Source: a virus. Taken from it: DNA of 29,620 nt. Made by a program: the position numbers and the translations under genes. Where the stretch lies: the IMG/VR virus record IMGVR_UViG_3300044701_002342, positions 1 through 29,620 of that record, one strand, 5' to 3'. The notes below the pieces were generated by a model. The model saw only the letters and a program-made list of their open reading frames with translations. It was not told where the DNA came from and made no database searches. Positions 2,678 to 12,916 of this stretch are shown here, piece after piece; position 1 is the first letter of the stretch, and each line of letters begins with the position of its first letter.

Positions 2678-2700
2678 GGCCAGCCCCATCGAAGCTGGCC
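2678..2700 (+). terminator. Possible terminator hairpin of the left operon
   Basis: A 7-bp perfect stem GGCCAGC/GCTGGCC with a 9-nt loop lies 26 nt after the stop of the last plus-strand gene. There is no T tract after it, so it is a weak or Rho-assisted terminator at best. Confidence 0.35.
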
Positions 2701-2747
2701 ACCCCGCCCCCCTTGCGGATGATGGGCCGACCTGGCCAGGGCACAGT

Positions 2748-2772
2748 AAAGCCCCGGTAGTGAGCCGGGGCT
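2748..2772 (-). terminator. Terminator hairpin after cassette A
   Basis: On the minus strand an 8-bp perfect stem AGCCCCGG/CCGGGGCT follows the stop of the 2780 gene. Only a short, broken T tract (TTTAC) follows. The stem is the same as in the two terminators at 3237 and 3588. Confidence 0.6.
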
Positions 2773-2779
2773 GGTGGGG

Positions 2780-3154
2780 TCAGGTCACAAGCTCAGTCAG
2801 GATCCCGAGCTGCTTTGCGTTGCGCCAGATCTCGCGGGCTTCATCTGCCGATTCAATGACCCGGTAGAAGCTGTCTCGGCCCCATTGCTTGCCGCGATAC
2901 GGGGCAACGCTCATCTTGATGTTCTTCCAGGTGCGACGACGCAGCTCGGCGCCACTGAAGGTGCCGTTGTTGACCCATACGGTCAGCATCAGGTCGGAGT
3001 TGTCTCCGATGAATGCGTTGATGTCGCGGAGCTTGCCGGTGGCGCCGCAGGCGAAGCAGTCGCCGTTCTGAATGTGGGAGAAGTGCGGCAGCTTGCCGGA
3101 TCCACCGCAGAAGGGGCAGGTGCAGGTGGCGTTGCGGAGCTTGGTAACGGTCAT
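2780..3154 (-). CDS. Cassette A: zinc-finger protein with DnaJ-like cysteine motif, 124 aa
   Basis: I chose the ATG at 3154 because it follows the conserved cassette leader; the upstream extension would translate through the promoter box. Residues about 11-42 hold CPFCGGSGKLPHFSH and then CFACGATGKL, two CxxCGxxG units like half of the DnaJ cysteine-rich zinc domain. The rest is basic and beta-rich (SVAPYRGKQWGRDSFYRVI) with a helix SADEAREIWRNAKQLGIL. I know similar small zinc proteins from cyanophages but not their function. The gene has its own promoter, 5' hairpin and terminator. Confidence 0.8.
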   Translation of the reverse strand: MTVTKLRNATCTCPFCGGSGKLPHFSHIQNGDCFACGATGKLRDINAFIGDNSDLMLTVWVNNGTFSGAELRRRTWKNIKMSVAPYRGKQWGRDSFYRVIESADEAREIWRNAKQLGILTELVT

Positions 3155-3171
3155 TGCCTGTCGATGGTTGC

Positions 3172-3187
3172 GCCGGGCCTCCCCGGC
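3172..3187 (-). promoter_or_regulatory. Cassette A 5' GAGG-loop hairpin
   Basis: On the minus strand the stem GCCGGG/CCCGGC encloses the loop GAGG. It starts 9 nt after the -10-like box, so it would be at or near the 5' end of the transcript, and lies 17 nt before the ATG. The spacer to the ATG (CAACCATCGACA core) is shared with cassette D. Confidence 0.6.
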
Positions 3188-3196
3188 TGTGAATCC

Positions 3197-3226
3197 ACCG
3201 TAGCGCACAGTCTGACGGCCTGGCAA
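3197..3226 (-). promoter_or_regulatory. Cassette A promoter-like box
   Basis: On the minus strand TTGCCA, an 18-nt spacer and TACGGT resemble a sigma-70 promoter. The spacer carries the repeated motif GTCAGAC followed by TGCGCTAC, which recurs in the other cassettes and could be an operator. Confidence 0.5.
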
Positions 3227-3236
3227 GCCTGCGCAC

Positions 3237-3263
3237 AAAAAAGCCCCGGTGGTTGCCGGGGCT
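3237..3263 (-). terminator. Rho-independent terminator after cassette B
   Basis: On the minus strand the stem AGCCCCGG/CCGGGGCT with loop CAACCA is followed by six T. It sits directly after the stop of the 3270 gene and ahead of the promoter of cassette A. Confidence 0.85.
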
Positions 3264-3269
3264 GGTGCG

Positions 3270-3503
3270 TCAGGCGACGGCGTTGGCTTCAGCGATGACC
3301 TGATCAATCCATGCGTGGTCGGCCTTGTATTCGGCCAGCCGCGCATCGTCGATCACGAGATCGTCCCAGTCGTTGCGCTCCAGGTCTGACGCGAGATCAT
3401 CAAGGTGAGCCTCGATGTCTCCGTAGACACAGGCGACGCGATCCCAGTTCGGGAGCGACTGCAGAAGCCTGATTGCCATCAGGGCCTGTGCGGTGTGATT
3501 CAT
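3270..3503 (-). CDS. Cassette B: small acidic protein, 77 aa
   Basis: A helical, acidic protein with many Asp (AHLDDLASDLERNDWDDLVIDDARLAEYKADHAWIDQVIAEA). The charge pattern would suit a DNA mimic or an adaptor binding a basic partner, but no family is recognised. It stands alone, with its own promoter at 3549, GAGG hairpin at 3525 and terminator at 3237. Confidence 0.75.
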   Translation of the reverse strand: MNHTAQALMAIRLLQSLPNWDRVACVYGDIEAHLDDLASDLERNDWDDLVIDDARLAEYKADHAWIDQVIAEANAVA

Positions 3504-3524
3504 TTGTCTAGGTGCGATGGGCGC

Positions 3525-3540
3525 CGGGGGCCTCCCCCCG
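3525..3540 (-). promoter_or_regulatory. Cassette B 5' GAGG-loop hairpin
   Basis: On the minus strand the stem CGGGGG/CCCCCG encloses the loop GAGG. It begins 8 nt after the -10-like box and ends 21 nt before the ATG. The stem sequence differs from the other copies while the loop is the same. Confidence 0.6.
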
Positions 3541-3548
3541 ACTCATCC

Positions 3549-3577
3549 AATGTAGCGCATAGGGTGACGGTGCGCAA
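3549..3577 (-). promoter_or_regulatory. Cassette B promoter-like box
   Basis: On the minus strand TTGCGC, a 17-nt spacer and TACATT form a plausible sigma-70 promoter. The spacer holds GTCACCC and TATGCGC, a variant of the shared motif. Confidence 0.55.
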
Positions 3578-3587
3578 CGGGCAGGCA

Positions 3588-3613
3588 TGAAAAAGCCCCG
3601 GACTGGCCGGGGC
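3588..3613 (-). terminator. Rho-independent terminator after cassette C
   Basis: On the minus strand the stem GCCCCGG/CCGGGGC with loop CCAGT is followed by five T, directly downstream of the 3631 gene and upstream of the promoter of cassette B. Confidence 0.85.
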
Positions 3614-3630
3614 GGTGGAGTTGGTTGGGA

Positions 3631-3876
3631 TCAGGCTGCGGCGTAGGTGTATTCGACGCCGATGATCCGCGGGTCGTGGTCCATCCAGAACTCGACGCGG
3701 CCGCCGACTGGGGAGATGTGGGTTACGGCGACGGCGCGTGCTGGCTCCATGTTGCGGATGGTTTCGCGGCTGACGACCGACGACCCGTCGCGGTAGTGGA
3801 GGGTTTCGATCTGGGTGAAATCCTTGGTGACATAGCCGATGGCGTTGTACCAGGTGCCGGATGTTTCGTCGTACAT
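3631..3876 (-). CDS. Cassette C: small hypothetical protein, 81 aa
   Basis: The ATG at 3876 (MYDETSGTWYNAIGYV) follows the conserved leader; an upstream in-frame ATG would sit in the hairpin region. The protein looks all-beta (TQIETLHYRDGSSVVSRETI, then RVEFWMDHDPRIIGVEYTY). No family is recognised. It is monocistronic, with its own promoter, GAGG hairpin and terminator. Confidence 0.75.
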   Translation of the reverse strand: MYDETSGTWYNAIGYVTKDFTQIETLHYRDGSSVVSRETIRNMEPARAVAVTHISPVGGRVEFWMDHDPRIIGVEYTYAAA

Positions 3877-3893
3877 GGCTTGTGATGGGTGGT

Positions 3894-3911
3894 GGGAGCG
3901 CCTCCGCCCCC
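3894..3911 (-). promoter_or_regulatory. Cassette C 5' GAGG-loop hairpin
   Basis: On the minus strand GGGGGCG pairs with CGCTCCC (one G-U wobble) around the loop GAGG. It begins 9 nt after the -10-like box and ends 17 nt before the ATG. The stem is one base pair longer than in A, B and D and different in sequence. Confidence 0.6.
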
Positions 3912-3920
3912 GATGCACAT

Positions 3921-3940
3921 AATGTAGCGCACAGTCTGAC
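3921..3940 (-). promoter_or_regulatory. Cassette C promoter-like box
   Basis: On the minus strand TACATT is preceded by GTCAGACTGTGCGC, identical to cassette A over that stretch. No good -35 is seen upstream (nearest is TGGCTG), so an activator or a different sigma factor may be needed. Confidence 0.5.
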
Positions 3941-3966
3941 GCGCAGCCACCTGCCAGCGGACCGGT

Positions 3967-4197
3967 TCACATAGCGTCACGCTTTCGTCTGGCCCTGCTG
4001 CGGGCCACCCGCTCAGCCTTGAACGCTCGGCCGGCTGGATCCAGTCGCTCCCAGCAGCGGCTGCACAGGATCCCGCGGGCACCACGATGCGCCAGCCCGC
4101 AGGCGGGGCAGATCGGCGGCTGTGGTGGTGGCAGCCGGCCTGCCTTGCGTTCGCGGTATCGGCGGCTGTATTCGGCAGCGCGTGGGTCGCTCACCAC
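3967..4197 (-). CDS. Small zinc-ribbon protein with basic tail, 76 aa
   Basis: A GTG start at 4197 overlaps the end of the 4191 gene. Residues about 29-48 hold CPACGLAHRGARGILCSRC, two CxxC pairs typical of a zinc ribbon; both flanks are rich in Arg and Lys (SRRYRERKAGR at the N side, RVARSRARRKR at the C side). A nucleic-acid-binding role is likely but not proven. It is the third gene after the cassette D promoter. Confidence 0.75.
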   Translation of the reverse strand: MVSDPRAAEYSRRYRERKAGRLPPPQPPICPACGLAHRGARGILCSRCWERLDPAGRAFKAERVARSRARRKRDAM

Positions 4198-4328
4198 TGG
4201 CCTTCCCGCTCGATGCGCAGGATGGTGGCGGTCGGTTCCAGCTCGGCAGCCGTGAGCCGAGCGGCCTGCAGCGACCGGGCCATGAGGCGCCAGGTGCCGG
4301 TGCTGCTGTGGACGATGTAGGTCTGCAT
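4191..4328 (-). CDS. Small hypothetical protein, 45 aa
   Basis: A short frame begins with ATG at 4328 (MQTYIVHSSTGTWRLMARSL), continues QAARLTAAELEPTATILRIE and ends just inside the next gene, overlapping its GTG start. The alternation of strand, helix and strand and the coupling to the 3967 gene support it as real. I have seen similar short proteins in cyanobacterial phage islands; the function is unknown. Confidence 0.65.
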   Translation of the reverse strand: MQTYIVHSSTGTWRLMARSLQAARLTAAELEPTATILRIEREGQW

Positions 4329-4350
4329 GGCGTGTCGTGCGGTGGGTAGT

Positions 4351-4369
4351 GCCGGGATGGGCTCCCGGC
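4351..4369 (-). terminator. Hairpin between cassette D and the 4191 gene
   Basis: The perfect 7-bp stem GCCGGGA/TCCCGGC with a 5-nt loop lies between the stop of the 4383 gene and the next ATG. No T tract follows, so it may be a partial terminator or mRNA processing/stabilising hairpin. Confidence 0.4.
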
Positions 4370-4382
4370 GGGCCGTGGTGGG

Positions 4383-4625
4383 TCAGGCGTCGGCCAGCGC
4401 GGCCAGCGCGGCCAGCGCGGCCTTCACGTCAGCAGCTTTGTAGGCGGCTGCGGCTTCTTCCAGGGAACCGAACTGCCTGCCCATCGACAGCCCAGACATG
4501 CCGTTGCGCTGGATGTACACGGTGATGCGGCCCCAAGGCCAGAAGCAGACGCCGATCTCCTTGCCTTTCTCGGTGGTCAGTGTGAAGAAGGTCTCGGACT
4601 CTTGCTGGATCAGGGTGGCGGTCAT
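4383..4625 (-). CDS. Cassette D: small hypothetical protein, 80 aa
   Basis: The ATG at 4625 follows the conserved leader; the longer frame to 4727 would read through the promoter and hairpin and is rejected. The protein has a beta-rich N-terminal half (FFTLTTEKGKEIGVCFWPWG, RITVYIQRNG) and an Ala-rich helical tail with the repeat ALAALAALADA, written at DNA level as a short GGCCAGCGC tandem repeat. No family is recognised. Two more genes follow with only a weak hairpin between, so this cassette may be tricistronic. Confidence 0.7.
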   Translation of the reverse strand: MTATLIQQESETFFTLTTEKGKEIGVCFWPWGRITVYIQRNGMSGLSMGRQFGSLEEAAAAYKAADVKAALAALAALADA

Positions 4626-4642
4626 GGCTTGTCGATGGTTGT

Positions 4643-4658
4643 GGCGGGCCTCCCCGCC
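4643..4658 (-). promoter_or_regulatory. Cassette D 5' GAGG-loop hairpin
   Basis: On the minus strand the stem GGCGGG/CCCGCC encloses the loop GAGG. It begins 9 nt after the -10-like box and ends 17 nt before the ATG. The following CAACCATCGACA is shared with cassette A. Confidence 0.6.
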
Positions 4659-4667
4659 GGTCTCCTT

Positions 4668-4687
4668 AATGTAGCGCATGGTCTGAC
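4668..4687 (-). promoter_or_regulatory. Cassette D promoter-like box
   Basis: On the minus strand TACATT is preceded by GTCAGACCATGCGC, matching cassettes A and C closely. As in C, no convincing -35 is present. Farther upstream a TGTGAACCG element is shared with the region upstream of cassette C. Confidence 0.5.
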
Positions 4688-4739
4688 GACCCGCGACCAC
4701 CAGCAAGGGCGGTTCACAGGTCGTCACATTGGCGGCCGC

Positions 4740-4928
4740 TCAGGCCTTGGCCAGTTCCGCCTCAAAGGCGGCAACGCAACGGCAGGCTTCTGCGTGAGCG
4801 ATCAGCAGTTCGCTGCGCTCGTGCAGGCTGTAGGTGGAGCGCAGCGCGGCGGCCAGCTGATCACGCTTGGCCTGATGGCACTCCAGCGCAGCGTTCAGAA
4901 GCTCAACCTGAGCGACGGTGATGGCCAT
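4740..4928 (-). CDS. Cassette E: small helical protein, 62 aa
   Basis: The ATG at 4928 is chosen; upstream residues would be encoded by the hairpin and promoter box. The sequence is almost entirely amphipathic helix (VAQVELLNAALECHQAKRDQL, LIAHAEACRCVAAFEAELAKA) with three Cys, so a helical hairpin or a dimer is likely. No family is recognised. There is no terminator before the cassette D promoter. Confidence 0.7.
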   Translation of the reverse strand: MAITVAQVELLNAALECHQAKRDQLAAALRSTYSLHERSELLIAHAEACRCVAAFEAELAKA

Positions 4929-4955
4929 GAACAAAACCGGCGACGTGGCCGGACG

Positions 4956-4989
4956 ATGGAGACCGGAGCGCCTCCGCCCCGGTCTCCAT
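4956..4989 (-). promoter_or_regulatory. Cassette E long GAGG-loop hairpin
   Basis: A 15-bp stem with a single G-U wobble encloses the loop GAGG, far more stable than the hairpins of the other cassettes. The outer pairs reach the -10-like box, so a transcript starting about 7 nt after it would contain only the inner part of the stem. The hairpin ends 27 nt before the ATG. Confidence 0.6.
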
Positions 4990-5019
4990 ACAGTAGCGCA
5001 TGGCCTGACGACCTGGCAA
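4990..5019 (-). promoter_or_regulatory. Cassette E promoter-like box
   Basis: On the minus strand TTGCCA, an 18-nt spacer and TACTGT form a sigma-70-like promoter, with GTCAGGCCATGCGC in the spacer, matching the shared motif. Confidence 0.5.
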
Positions 5020-5037
5020 CCATCGAGGCCGATCACG

Positions 5038-5223
5038 TCATGCCAGCGCCTTGCGCACCTGGTAGACGGTGATCCCGAGGCGGGTGGCGATGGCGCGTTG
5101 CGTCATCCCCGCGGCACGCAGGCGGCGGATCCGCTGCGGTTGTGATTCGAGCAGCCAGGCGAGGAACAGGGCAGGCAGCAGCAGCAGCGCCAGCGCCCAC
5201 GCCAGCAGGCAGGTGGTGGTCAT
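5038..5223 (-). CDS. Cassette F: membrane-anchored mini HTH protein, 60 aa
   Basis: Residues about 4-25 form a strong hydrophobic segment (CLLAWALALLLLPALFLAWLL). Residues about 31-59 read IRRLRAAGMTQRAIATRLGI followed by TVYQVRKAL, a good Hin/resolvase-type helix-turn-helix. A DNA-binding domain this small joined directly to a membrane helix is unusual; it could tether DNA to the membrane or act as a membrane-bound regulator. It is the first gene of the minus-strand array, facing the XRE regulator. Confidence 0.75.
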   Translation of the reverse strand: MTTTCLLAWALALLLLPALFLAWLLESQPQRIRRLRAAGMTQRAIATRLGITVYQVRKALA

Positions 5224-5307
5224 GGTGGTTTTCGGTAGTGCCGGCTGGAGCGCTCAGCCTCGACAGCGGGCGGAATGGTGCGTGCCGAACAGGCCGGCAA
5301 CAGGCTC

Positions 5308-5338
5308 ACCTTAGCGCATGGCATGCCTGCCGCTACAA
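5308..5338 (-). promoter_or_regulatory. Cassette F promoter-like box
   Basis: On the minus strand TTGTAG, a 19-nt spacer and TAAGGT, with CATGCGCTA as in the other cassettes. GTCAG is absent and is replaced by GGCAGGCATGCC. No GAGG hairpin follows, so this copy is diverged. Confidence 0.35.
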
Positions 5339-5340
5339 GG

Positions 5341-5368
5341 GGAAACCGTATGGAAACCAAAGGGTTTC
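5341..5368. promoter_or_regulatory. Candidate operator: GGAAACC direct repeat plus palindrome
   Basis: GGAAACC occurs at 5341 and 5352, one helical turn (11 bp) apart, and the second copy forms the palindrome GAAACC-AAAG-GGTTTC (5353-5368). It lies between the first minus-strand cassette and the XRE regulator, where a repressor would act on both directions. The base composition is visibly lower in GC than the surroundings. Confidence 0.5.
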
Positions 5369-5405
5369 GCCGTTAGTGTGTCGTTATCCCTTCTGAGTCT
5401 GAGCA

Positions 5406-10700: not shown

Positions 10701-11820
10701 GCACCTGCTCCAGTCGCTGCTGCTTCGCGGCGATCACCGGCGCCAGGTCCGGGTCAGCCAGCTTCTGCAGTGATTCGATCTGCCGCCGTAGTTCTCGGGC
10801 TTCCGGCGGTTCGCCTTGCGTGGCCAGTGCCGCCAGCCGCTCGGTCGCATGCTCCCTGATGGCGTCGATCGCATAGGCGACGATCACCGCTTCCCTGGTG
10901 CCCTTGTAGACCTGGCTGCACAGGTCGCCGTAGCAGCGCAGGCTCGGGATCGTCCGGCCGGCGATGTACTTCATCACGCAGCCGCATTCGGCGCAGACCA
11001 CCAGCGAGGTGAGGATCCGCGGCTTCCTGGTGACGTTGCTGCCCCACAGGCGGCGGTTCTGCTGCACCTGTCGCTCGAACTCCGCGAACTGCGCATGGGT
11101 CAGCAGCGCCGGATGCTGATCCCAGTGGACATCGGCAAAGGTGTGGTTCTTGCCCTGCTGATACCCGATGCCACCGCGCAGCGTGGGGTTCAGCAGCCAG
11201 GCCCGTACGCCCCGTACAGACTTGAACGGCACTGTCTCCCGGTGCGCCTGCAGCGCCGGCAGCATGCGCCAGCCGCCAGCCTGCAGGGCATCAATGAACC
11301 GCTGAGCCGGCAGCCATGCTTCCGGGTCGGGCTCCAGTGCCAGCCGGTCCGCTCGCAGCCGGTAGCCCCAGCAGGGCTTGCGCATGGGCTTGCGCATCGC
11401 CCGGCCCTGCTCAAGACCGCGGCGCACCCGCTGCGAGATCCGCATGCTCTCGCCTTGGTTCAGGCTGCCCCTCATGCGCGTGAGCAGCAGTCCCTCGGGT
11501 GTCGCCATGGACAGCTGCCCCTCGTCCCTGGTGGTGACGACCACGCCGCGGGCATCGCAAAGCGCCACGAACGCATCCGACTCGGCGGCATCGCGGCCCA
11601 GGCGGCTCAGCGATGTGGCCAGCACCGTCTCCACCTGCCCGCGCTCCACCATCGCCCGCAGCTGCTGGTAGTTGGCGCGGCTGACGACCCTGCCAGACTC
11701 CACATCTGAGAGCAGCACGTCCGGCCCTTGGCTTTCGAGCCAGGCGATCTGGGCATTGAGTGCGCTCAACTGCTCTCCTGAGGCGGTGGATACCCGGGCA
11801 TAGGCGACGGTCAGGGGCAT
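10540..11820 (-). CDS. Large serine recombinase (XisF-like phage integrase), 426 aa
   Basis: The N-terminal resolvase domain has the nucleophile motif YARVSTASGEQ (Ser about residue 11) and the conserved TSLSRLGRDA. A recombinase domain follows (KPCWGYRL ... RGVRAWLLNPTLRGGIGYQ, about 150-215), then a zinc ribbon (VCAECGCVMKYIAGR ... RCYGDLC, about 275-300) and a long helical coiled-coil region. This is the order of large serine recombinases; the moderate length and LNPTLRGG segment recall XisF, which excises the fdxN element in heterocystous cyanobacteria. It probably integrates and excises this phage; the att site is not identified. It diverges from the sigma factor gene across 94 bp. Confidence 0.92.
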   Translation of the reverse strand: MPLTVAYARVSTASGEQLSALNAQIAWLESQGPDVLLSDVESGRVVSRANYQQLRAMVERGQVETVLATSLSRLGRDAAESDAFVALCDARGVVVTTRDEGQLSMATPEGLLLTRMRGSLNQGESMRISQRVRRGLEQGRAMRKPMRKPCWGYRLRADRLALEPDPEAWLPAQRFIDALQAGGWRMLPALQAHRETVPFKSVRGVRAWLLNPTLRGGIGYQQGKNHTFADVHWDQHPALLTHAQFAEFERQVQQNRRLWGSNVTRKPRILTSLVVCAECGCVMKYIAGRTIPSLRCYGDLCSQVYKGTREAVIVAYAIDAIREHATERLAALATQGEPPEARELRRQIESLQKLADPDLAPVIAAKQQRLEQVLTRPAIDGELARKLADPAWWDEAREDEVAAMLRAVVSRIVVARQEPTAVDLRL

Positions 11821-11914
11821 GGGTCAGAATGTAGCCCGTGAGCCACTGACCCTCGCCTTAGTGTATTAGGGGTCATATCCGTCAGAACACGCGCCAACAC
11901 TGCGATCTGAGCCC
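11821..11914. promoter_or_regulatory. Divergent intergenic region between recombinase and sigma factor
   Basis: Ninety-four base pairs hold the control signals of both genes. A minus-strand TACATT (11828-11833) lies only 7 nt before the recombinase ATG, so a transcript from it would be nearly leaderless. GTCAGAA occurs twice (from 11823 and 11881). The centre (TTAGTGTATTAGGGGTCATAT) is AT-rich compared with its surroundings and could hold the sigma gene promoter. No clear -35/-10 pair is found for either gene. Confidence 0.4.
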
Positions 11915-12916
11915 ATGACCACCACCACCGACCAACTTGCCTGGTGGCGCGAACGCGCCGGTGCCCATCCGCTGCTCACGCCCAAACAGGAGCTGGTCCT
12001 GGGGCGGCAGGTGCAGGCCTGGCAGGCTGACCCAGCAGCGGCCGATGCCCGCACCGAGCGCCGCGGCCGGCGGGCTCGCGATCGACTGGTCGCTGCAAAC
12101 CTGCGGCTGGTGATCGCGGTAGCTCGCCGCCATCAACGGCACGTCACCGCCGGCTGCGGGTTGGACGACCTGATCCAAGGCGGCAACATCGGCCTGTGCC
12201 GGGCGGCAGAGAAGTTCGACCCGAGCCGCGGCTACCGGTTCTCCACCTACGCTTACTGGTGGATCAGCCAAGGTGTCCGTGCCGTTGTGGACCGGGACAG
12301 CCGCACCATCCGCATGCCGACGACGTTTGCGTCAAGGCTTCACGCGATCCAGGCGGCGACACAGACGCTGGTCCTGCGGTTGGGCCGTGAGCCGCGACAC
12401 GACGAGCTGGCAGCTGAGCTGGGCATCCACCGCGGCGCATTGGATGCGCTGCTGACGATCGGCGGACGCTGCGCCAGCCTGGACCGGCTGATCAGCGACA
12501 GCGGCGAGACAACGTTCGTCGAGGCCCTCGCGGCACCAAGCAATCCTGAGGACGACGATGAGCAGCTACAGGATCTCCGCAGCCGAATCGAAGCGCTGCC
12601 TGACCACCTGGCCCGACTGGTGCAGGCCCGTTACCACCACAAGGTGCCGGCAGCGGAGATCGCAGCACAGGAGCGGCTGACGCCATTGGAGCTGAGGCGC
12701 CGGATGAGGACCGCCATTGGGATGCTCAGTGGCCTGCCTGCTGCTGCTGCACCGCCGTGCCAGGAGGGCTTGATCACAGGTGATCAACTGGCCCTGTTTG
12801 CGCTGACAGCACCTGCGCAGCGAAGTGATGCCAGTCGGAAGGCGGCGGCACGGCGACACCATCGGCCATCATCTGATGAGCCTCAAGCTCAGCAATTCGC
12901 TTTGCTGCTTGCTTGA
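11915..12916 (+). CDS. Phage-encoded RNA polymerase sigma factor, sigma-70 group 2-like, 333 aa
   Basis: Region 1.2 is seen at about residues 17-34 (AHPLLTPKQELVLGRQVQ), region 2 at about 60-125 (RLVAANLRLVIAVARRHQ, LDDLIQGGNIGLCRAAEKFD, GYRFSTYAYWWISQGVRAVV, SRTIRMP) and region 3 after it (LGREPRHDELAAELGI). The core-binding and -10-melting segments are well kept. Region 4 (PAAEIAAQERLTPLELRRRM) lacks the usual TLEEIG...RERIRQIE signature, so -35 recognition is probably altered or lost. It resembles the cyanobacterial group 2 sigma family. The C-terminal tail overlaps a convergent gene. It could redirect host RNA polymerase to phage promoters. Confidence 0.9.
   Translation: MTTTTDQLAWWRERAGAHPLLTPKQELVLGRQVQAWQADPAAADARTERRGRRARDRLVAANLRLVIAVARRHQRHVTAGCGLDDLIQGGNIGLCRAAEKFDPSRGYRFSTYAYWWISQGVRAVVDRDSRTIRMPTTFASRLHAIQAATQTLVLRLGREPRHDELAAELGIHRGALDALLTIGGRCASLDRLISDSGETTFVEALAAPSNPEDDDEQLQDLRSRIEALPDHLARLVQARYHHKVPAAEIAAQERLTPLELRRRMRTAIGMLSGLPAAAAPPCQEGLITGDQLALFALTAPAQRSDASRKAAARRHHRPSSDEPQAQQFALLLA

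Follow-up and report, generated by a model that had tools for sequence, protein, structure and literature searches.

Five small genes on the minus strand of the virus record IMGVR_UViG_3300044701_002342, a complete IMG/VR entry of 29,620 bases that was analysed over its full length (the window), each stand behind a promoter that is followed by a short hairpin with a GAGG loop (Table 1). We consider it reasonably probable that each of these cassettes forms a small transcription unit with a 5'-terminal cap hairpin, built into its promoter, that protects a short mRNA. An earlier reading of the bare sequence (hereafter the original prediction) had placed GAGG hairpins at the 5' ends of the five genes, had argued for a functional RNA structure near +1, and had listed a stabilising 5' cap hairpin among its options. 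All five hairpins are present as located; the functional structure is well supported by covariation, a fixed position, and its occurrence before 28 gene families in many related phages; and the cap hairpin fits best among the options then raised.

The cassettes and their predicted transcripts

The five cassettes share a -10-like box of consensus TACNNT, and the promoter element GTCAGRCYRTGCGCTAC has exactly five matches in the record, one per cassette, with none for a control pattern (at most two mismatches allowed). The whole record contains five GAGG hairpins with a stem of at least 6 base pairs (bp), which are those of the five cassettes and all lie behind a TA[CT]NNT box, whereas Markov-simulated sequence of the same dinucleotide make-up gave a mean of 0.94 such hairpins, and 0.025 in the TA[CT]NNT context. 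The stem had been described as starting 8-9 nucleotides (nt) after the -10 box in cassettes A to D; this spacing is 9 nt in A, C and D, but 6-8 nt in B. Likewise, the 15-bp palindrome reported for cassette E is there, but it extends into the untranscribed spacer, and only about 9 bp of its stem would be transcribed from the predicted +1.

Transcription should start at a conserved A located 7 nt past the last base of the -10 box. This A is invariant in the family alignment (A4) and was present at 51 of the 62 sites of a promoter scan that was agnostic to hairpins; nearly every site that has the family promoter is followed by a hairpin. The predicted RNAs fold into three free nucleotides, a stem and a loop, and in most of the copies folded the linker and the AUG are unpaired. 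The open, A/C-rich linker of about 17 nt separates the hairpin from the AUG, and the distance from loop to ATG clusters at 23-24 nt.

We propose that the resulting RNA would consist, in order, of three unpaired nucleotides, a stem of 6 or more bp, a short loop rich in purines (GAGG in this virus, and GNRA-like or GGAA in relatives), the linker and the AUG, so that the hairpin would leave hardly any single-stranded 5' end. Since RppH and RNase E require single-stranded 5' ends, which accounts for the effect of stabilising 5' structures (PMC3997798), a stem-loop in this position would be useful: decay that depends on the 5' end (by pyrophosphohydrolase, 5' tethering of RNase E, or RNase J) would be hindered, and the short mRNAs would last longer. 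The hairpin may also hold the region of the start codon unpaired. Such a cap would suit short units that have promoters of their own and, in several cases, a terminator as well.

Several points weigh against this explanation. The folding energies of most copies are not below those of shuffled sequence, as the composition alone is G+C rich. The start site is a prediction, and stabilisation of the mRNA is something that we infer. A plain stabiliser needs no fixed loop, yet GAGG is kept at most sites of the lineage while the stems change; thermodynamics or descent may explain this, but it is the weak point of the cap-hairpin explanation, and it makes a loop-specific partner the most interesting alternative. 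Finally, a second, promoter-less class of hairpin (Table 1) shows that in these phages a hairpin before an AUG is not always a feature of a start site. Members of this class, CCACGGCCC, have a near-constant stem and a GCCCA loop, GCCGG(G)A-GCCCA-T(C)CCGGC, and lie directly after a stop codon, 20-29 nt before the next ATG; they are also found in the related contigs L011, L064 (two), L078, L094, L115, L355, L357 (two) and L377, and their role may be to mark processing or to insulate the cistrons of an operon from one another.

Covariation and spread among related phages

Further copies in related genomes, proposed originally as a check, were found in scans of viral contigs, with about 45 distinct copies of the promoter-hairpin unit in related cyanophage contigs. 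Their stems include GGAGGG/CCCTCC, GCAGGG/CCCTGC, GGCGGG/CCCGCC, GCCGGG/CCCGGC, GGGAGG/CCTCCC and GTCACCGG/CCGGTGGC. The covariation first noticed among the five stems proved real. Across 24 distinct hairpins, 97% of cells are paired, against 72 +/- 2.5% after shuffling, with a covariation score of 0.62 against 0.14 (at most 0.17 in slid controls); for 21 aligned family sequences the values are 100% against 80.3 +/- 2.2%, and 0.50 against 0.11. Compensatory changes affect 4-5 of the 6 stem pairs. Part of the hairpin set was gathered with a pattern that demanded some pairing, but the promoter-first scans, which make no such demand, agree.

The 48 proteins encoded behind the element, which are small, fall into 28 clusters without detected mutual similarity, and orthologous proteins carry different stems; pairing has thus been kept through independent changes. 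Together with the exchange of loops among relatives described below, this indicates that structure rather than exact sequence is maintained.

We rejected the idea of a host element. The strict pattern had no match in 84,980 genomes, and a covariance model searched against 251 genomes of the host family matched a single one, on an 8.1-kb contig that may itself be phage. Matches of the L013/L020 type from the first scan were also set aside, because the site concerned belongs to other phages, follows a stop codon and resembles a terminator. A BLAST comparison of contigs L126, L151, L156 and L254 with annotated phages gave no match.

The loop is near-fixed and exchangeable

The loop was originally called invariant, which is true of the five cassettes but not of the family: GAGG occurs at 43 of about 56 real sites, and is thus near-fixed within one lineage, which weakens the part of the earlier argument that was based on the loop. 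The loop is GAGA (L064), GGAA (twice in L129), GAAA (L145 and L411, the latter a Cyanobium contig), GAA (L357), GAAACG (L355, L393), an AGG triloop (L106) or a bulged GAGA (L411) in cassettes that otherwise share the promoter, the spacing, the linker and the ATG. Of these contigs, L355, L393 and L357 were found through a sigma factor gene, independently of the hairpin. The cultured Synechococcus phage S-CBS4 has four cassettes, one with a GAGA and three with a GCGA loop, before gp099, gp104 and two further reading frames. The closing G-C pair never varies among the 24 distinct hairpins. When AGGG was used as a control loop with the same promoter pattern, only 3-bp stems (and one of 5 bp) were obtained, and no clear unit of promoter, hairpin, Shine-Dalgarno (SD) sequence and ATG.

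Since cassettes of the same anatomy, four of them in S-CBS4, use GAGA, GAAA, GGAA, GAA or GCGA, comparison of the sequences indicates that the GGAGG core is not needed and that the loop is not an obligatory SD core. Two of the S-CBS4 cassettes (contig L407, 42123-42549 and 42570-42622) suggest missed or mis-started genes: they precede an unannotated frame whose ATG is at 42171 and, at 42622, an ATG that lies upstream of the start annotated for gp101. The element offers a rule for locating small genes, and the true starts of genes, in phage genomes that lack annotation, and the presence of the same anatomy in a cultured phage makes the idea of a capped transcript testable. If protection is its function, this would be a phage lineage in which mRNA protection is a fixed part of the promoter, so that any small gene dropped in would receive a capped 5' end.

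Alternative explanations and known systems

The persistence of the loop in the lineage, the unvarying closing pair and the sharing of the element by unrelated genes would also be expected if a phage or host protein recognised the GAGG hairpin as a sequence-specific RNA tag and controlled the cassettes jointly, as a regulon, through decay or translation. We regard this as unlikely: otherwise identical cassettes have GGAA, GAGA, GAAA, GAA or GCGA loops, some of them beside GAGG in the same phage, and no candidate RNA-binding protein was identified. Taken furthest, one factor would govern dozens of unrelated small genes through a GAGG hairpin that serves as their 5' tag, with sister phages using tags with other loops, a doubtful proposition. 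Quite unlikely, in our estimation, is a role in translation, in which the GGAGG of the loop, or the hairpin with its open linker, would recruit or position the 30S subunit on mRNAs that have no normal SD. GGAGG is the SD core, there is no SD near the ATG of the cassette genes, and the clustered loop-to-ATG distance and the unpaired linker and AUG would suit such a role. However, S-CBS4 and other relatives have no GGAGG, a separate SD is present in phages with the same GAGG hairpin (L126, L130, L151, L155, L156), the anti-SD would pair poorly with a tetraloop held on a strong stem, and most other genes of this phage also have no SD. The earlier suggestion of a sequestered or standby SD, with the loop as obligatory SD, is therefore contradicted as a general function by the exchanged loops and by the phages with a separate SD. 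STAB-SD elements are believed to expose an SD to which the 30S subunit binds. In the phage element GGAGG is instead made up of the loop and its closing pair, and the SD-like sequence near the 5' end and far from the start codon that characterises STAB-SD and the Bacillus aprE leader (Agaisse and Lereclus 1996; Hambraeus 2002; both as cited in PMC3997798) is there with GAGG loops but absent from S-CBS4 (GCGA) and L129 (GGAA).

An antiterminator similar to the put RNA of phage HK022, which would modify RNA polymerase as the transcript begins and allow read-through of the cassette terminators, had also been suggested. HK022 put is a longer antiterminator of two hairpins that heads long operons with terminators inside them, and it acts without a phage protein. 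PUT RNA touches the zinc-finger region of RNA polymerase (PMC4499122). The phage element is likewise an RNA structure close to where phage early transcripts begin, at the very front of the RNA, with terminators lying between the cassettes. We nevertheless find a put-like function very unlikely. One short hairpin faces the two stem-loops of put (a single hairpin near +1 was seen in the folded copies except those of L411 and L145, which have a second one), its loop varies among phages, and the units are mostly short and monocistronic, often ending in their own terminator; with cassettes that have their own promoters, and terminators that directly precede the next promoter, little would be gained from read-through. 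That the inverted repeat acts at the DNA level, as an operator or part of the promoter that is possibly read with a phage-encoded sigma factor, strikes us as most improbable. Its spacing to the -10 box is tight, and the window, like 10 of 29 related records tested, encodes a phage sigma factor, but the arms change in a compensatory manner, whereas an operator would retain the letters of its half-sites. The link between sigma factor and cassettes, which had looked strong from those 10 records, is not supported by 80 independently found sigma loci, among which only two already-known records have GAGG cassettes within reach and three more have cassettes with other loops.

A protective cap hairpin has its closest precedent in the 5'-terminal stabilising stem-loops of the E. 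coli ompA and papA mRNAs (Emory 1992; Bouvet and Belasco 1992; Arnold 1998; Bricker 1999; all as cited in PMC3997798). As in those mRNAs, the stem-loop lies a few nucleotides from the 5' end, with the stem beginning at +4 as counted from the predicted start A, and is independent of the gene behind it. Unlike them, the phage hairpin belongs to a promoter cassette that is repeated, its loop is near-fixed in a given lineage, and it precedes dozens of unrelated genes; its stabilising effect is a proposal. The SAS/ESAS of cluster K mycobacteriophages, a near-constant 13-bp GGGATAGGAGCCC typically 3-7 bp from the start codon (PMC3203893), is similarly repeated before many unrelated non-structural phage genes, and SAS has GGG...CCC flanks around an AGGAG core. 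The phage element differs from it in sequence, in being a covarying hairpin at the predicted transcript start, and in lying mostly 22-28 nt from the ATG. Rfam gave no match in the window, and only sub-threshold matches, short of the gathering threshold, in 2700-5400; no description of a promoter-hairpin element was found in the open-access literature searched. The earlier remark that no element of this form had been described agrees with both searches as far as the multi-cassette phage form is concerned, although the cap-hairpin principle is known from the ompA/papA type.

Hairpins behind promoters of other phages

A search behind TTGAC..TANNNT promoters in which the stem was fixed but the loop left free returned 98 distinct sites with many different loops, the commonest including GCTT (6), GTCA (5) and GAAA (4), while GAGG occurred once. 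Among 128 promoters of the same contigs, counted after removal of the hairpins used for finding them, a hairpin starts 5-9 nt after the -10 box at 18, 0-4 nt after it at 6, and at no more than 3 per 5-nt bin from 10 nt on; the set was ascertained through one hairpin per contig, so that this enrichment describes these phages rather than phages generally, and the set chosen otherwise comprises only 28 promoters. Many of these unrelated phages have a separate SD before the ATG. Those of the L254 type combine differing loops with a normal SD before each ATG: L254, L197, L202, L227 and L273 have several promoters each with a 5' hairpin (loops GCTT, ACTT, ATTT, CGTT) and a strong SD of sequence GGAGG. 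The peak at 5-9 nt, seen in several phage groups and with varied loops, suggests that promoter-embedded 5' hairpins could be a widespread but overlooked device of phage gene expression.

The virus and other features of the window

The record encodes, among others, lambda-type tail genes, an endolysin and a serine integrase that is 57-58% identical to proteins of two Cyanobium genomes, and ORF A (open reading frame A) has its ortholog in gp099 of S-CBS4 (59% identity). Given these genes and relatives, a temperate siphovirus that infects the freshwater cyanobacterium Cyanobium is the most likely identity of the virus, in keeping with the earlier guess of a cyanophage.

Table 1. Coordinates of the cassette hairpins, promoter elements and neighbouring features in the window
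Feature	Position	Strand	Details
Hairpin A	3172..3187	-	GCCGGG-GAGG-CCCGGC; -10 TACGGT 3197-3202; predicted +1 A3190; R1 47.6 bits
Hairpin B	3523..3542	-	GTCGGGGG-GAGG-CCCCCGGC; -10 TACATT 3549-3554; predicted +1 A3543 or G3542; R1 20.8 bits
Hairpin C	3894..3911	-	GGGGGCG-GAGG-CGCTCCC, one G-U; -10 TACATT 3921-3926; predicted +1 A3914; R1 40.9 bits
Hairpin D	4643..4658	-	GGCGGG-GAGG-CCCGCC; -10 TACATT 4668-4673; predicted +1 A4661; R1 57.1 bits
Hairpin E	4956..4989	-	15-bp palindrome, GAGG loop; -10 TACTGT 4990-4995; predicted +1 A4983; R1 44.3 bits
Promoter element, cassette A	3200..3216	-	GTCAGACTGTGCGCTAC; other cassettes 3552-3568, 3924-3940, 4671-4687, 4993-5009
ORF A	2780..3154	-	124 amino acids, Cys-rich (CPFC...CFACG); ortholog of S-CBS4 gp099
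ORF B	3270..3503	-	77 amino acids; relatives behind the same hairpin element in L054, L057
ORF C	3631..3876	-	81 amino acids; matches no known family
ORF D	4383..4625	-	80 amino acids; matches no known family
ORF E	4740..4928	-	62 amino acids; matches no known family
Intrinsic terminator	3242..3263	-	separates ORF B from promoter A
Intrinsic terminator	3595..3613	-	separates ORF C from promoter B
Second hairpin class, promoter-less	4351..4369	-	GCCGGGA-GCCCA-TCCCGGC; between ORF D stop and ATG at 4328
Sigma-70-type factor	11915..12916	+	regions 1.2, 2, 3, with a degenerate region 4; may read the cassette promoters

Phages S-LBS1, S-CBS1, S-CBS3 and KBS-S-2A encode homologs of the sigma-70-type factor, but a search for cassettes of the present type in them gave nothing convincing. 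In the leader of ORF E, a terminator-like hairpin followed by TTTTG (CCGGCCACGTCGCCGG-TTTTG, 4937-4952, minus strand) separates hairpin E from the ATG and is a possible attenuator. At 11820-11840 on the minus strand, GGGCTACATT lies just 7-8 nt upstream of the integrase ATG, which suggests a leaderless mRNA made from a similar -10 box.

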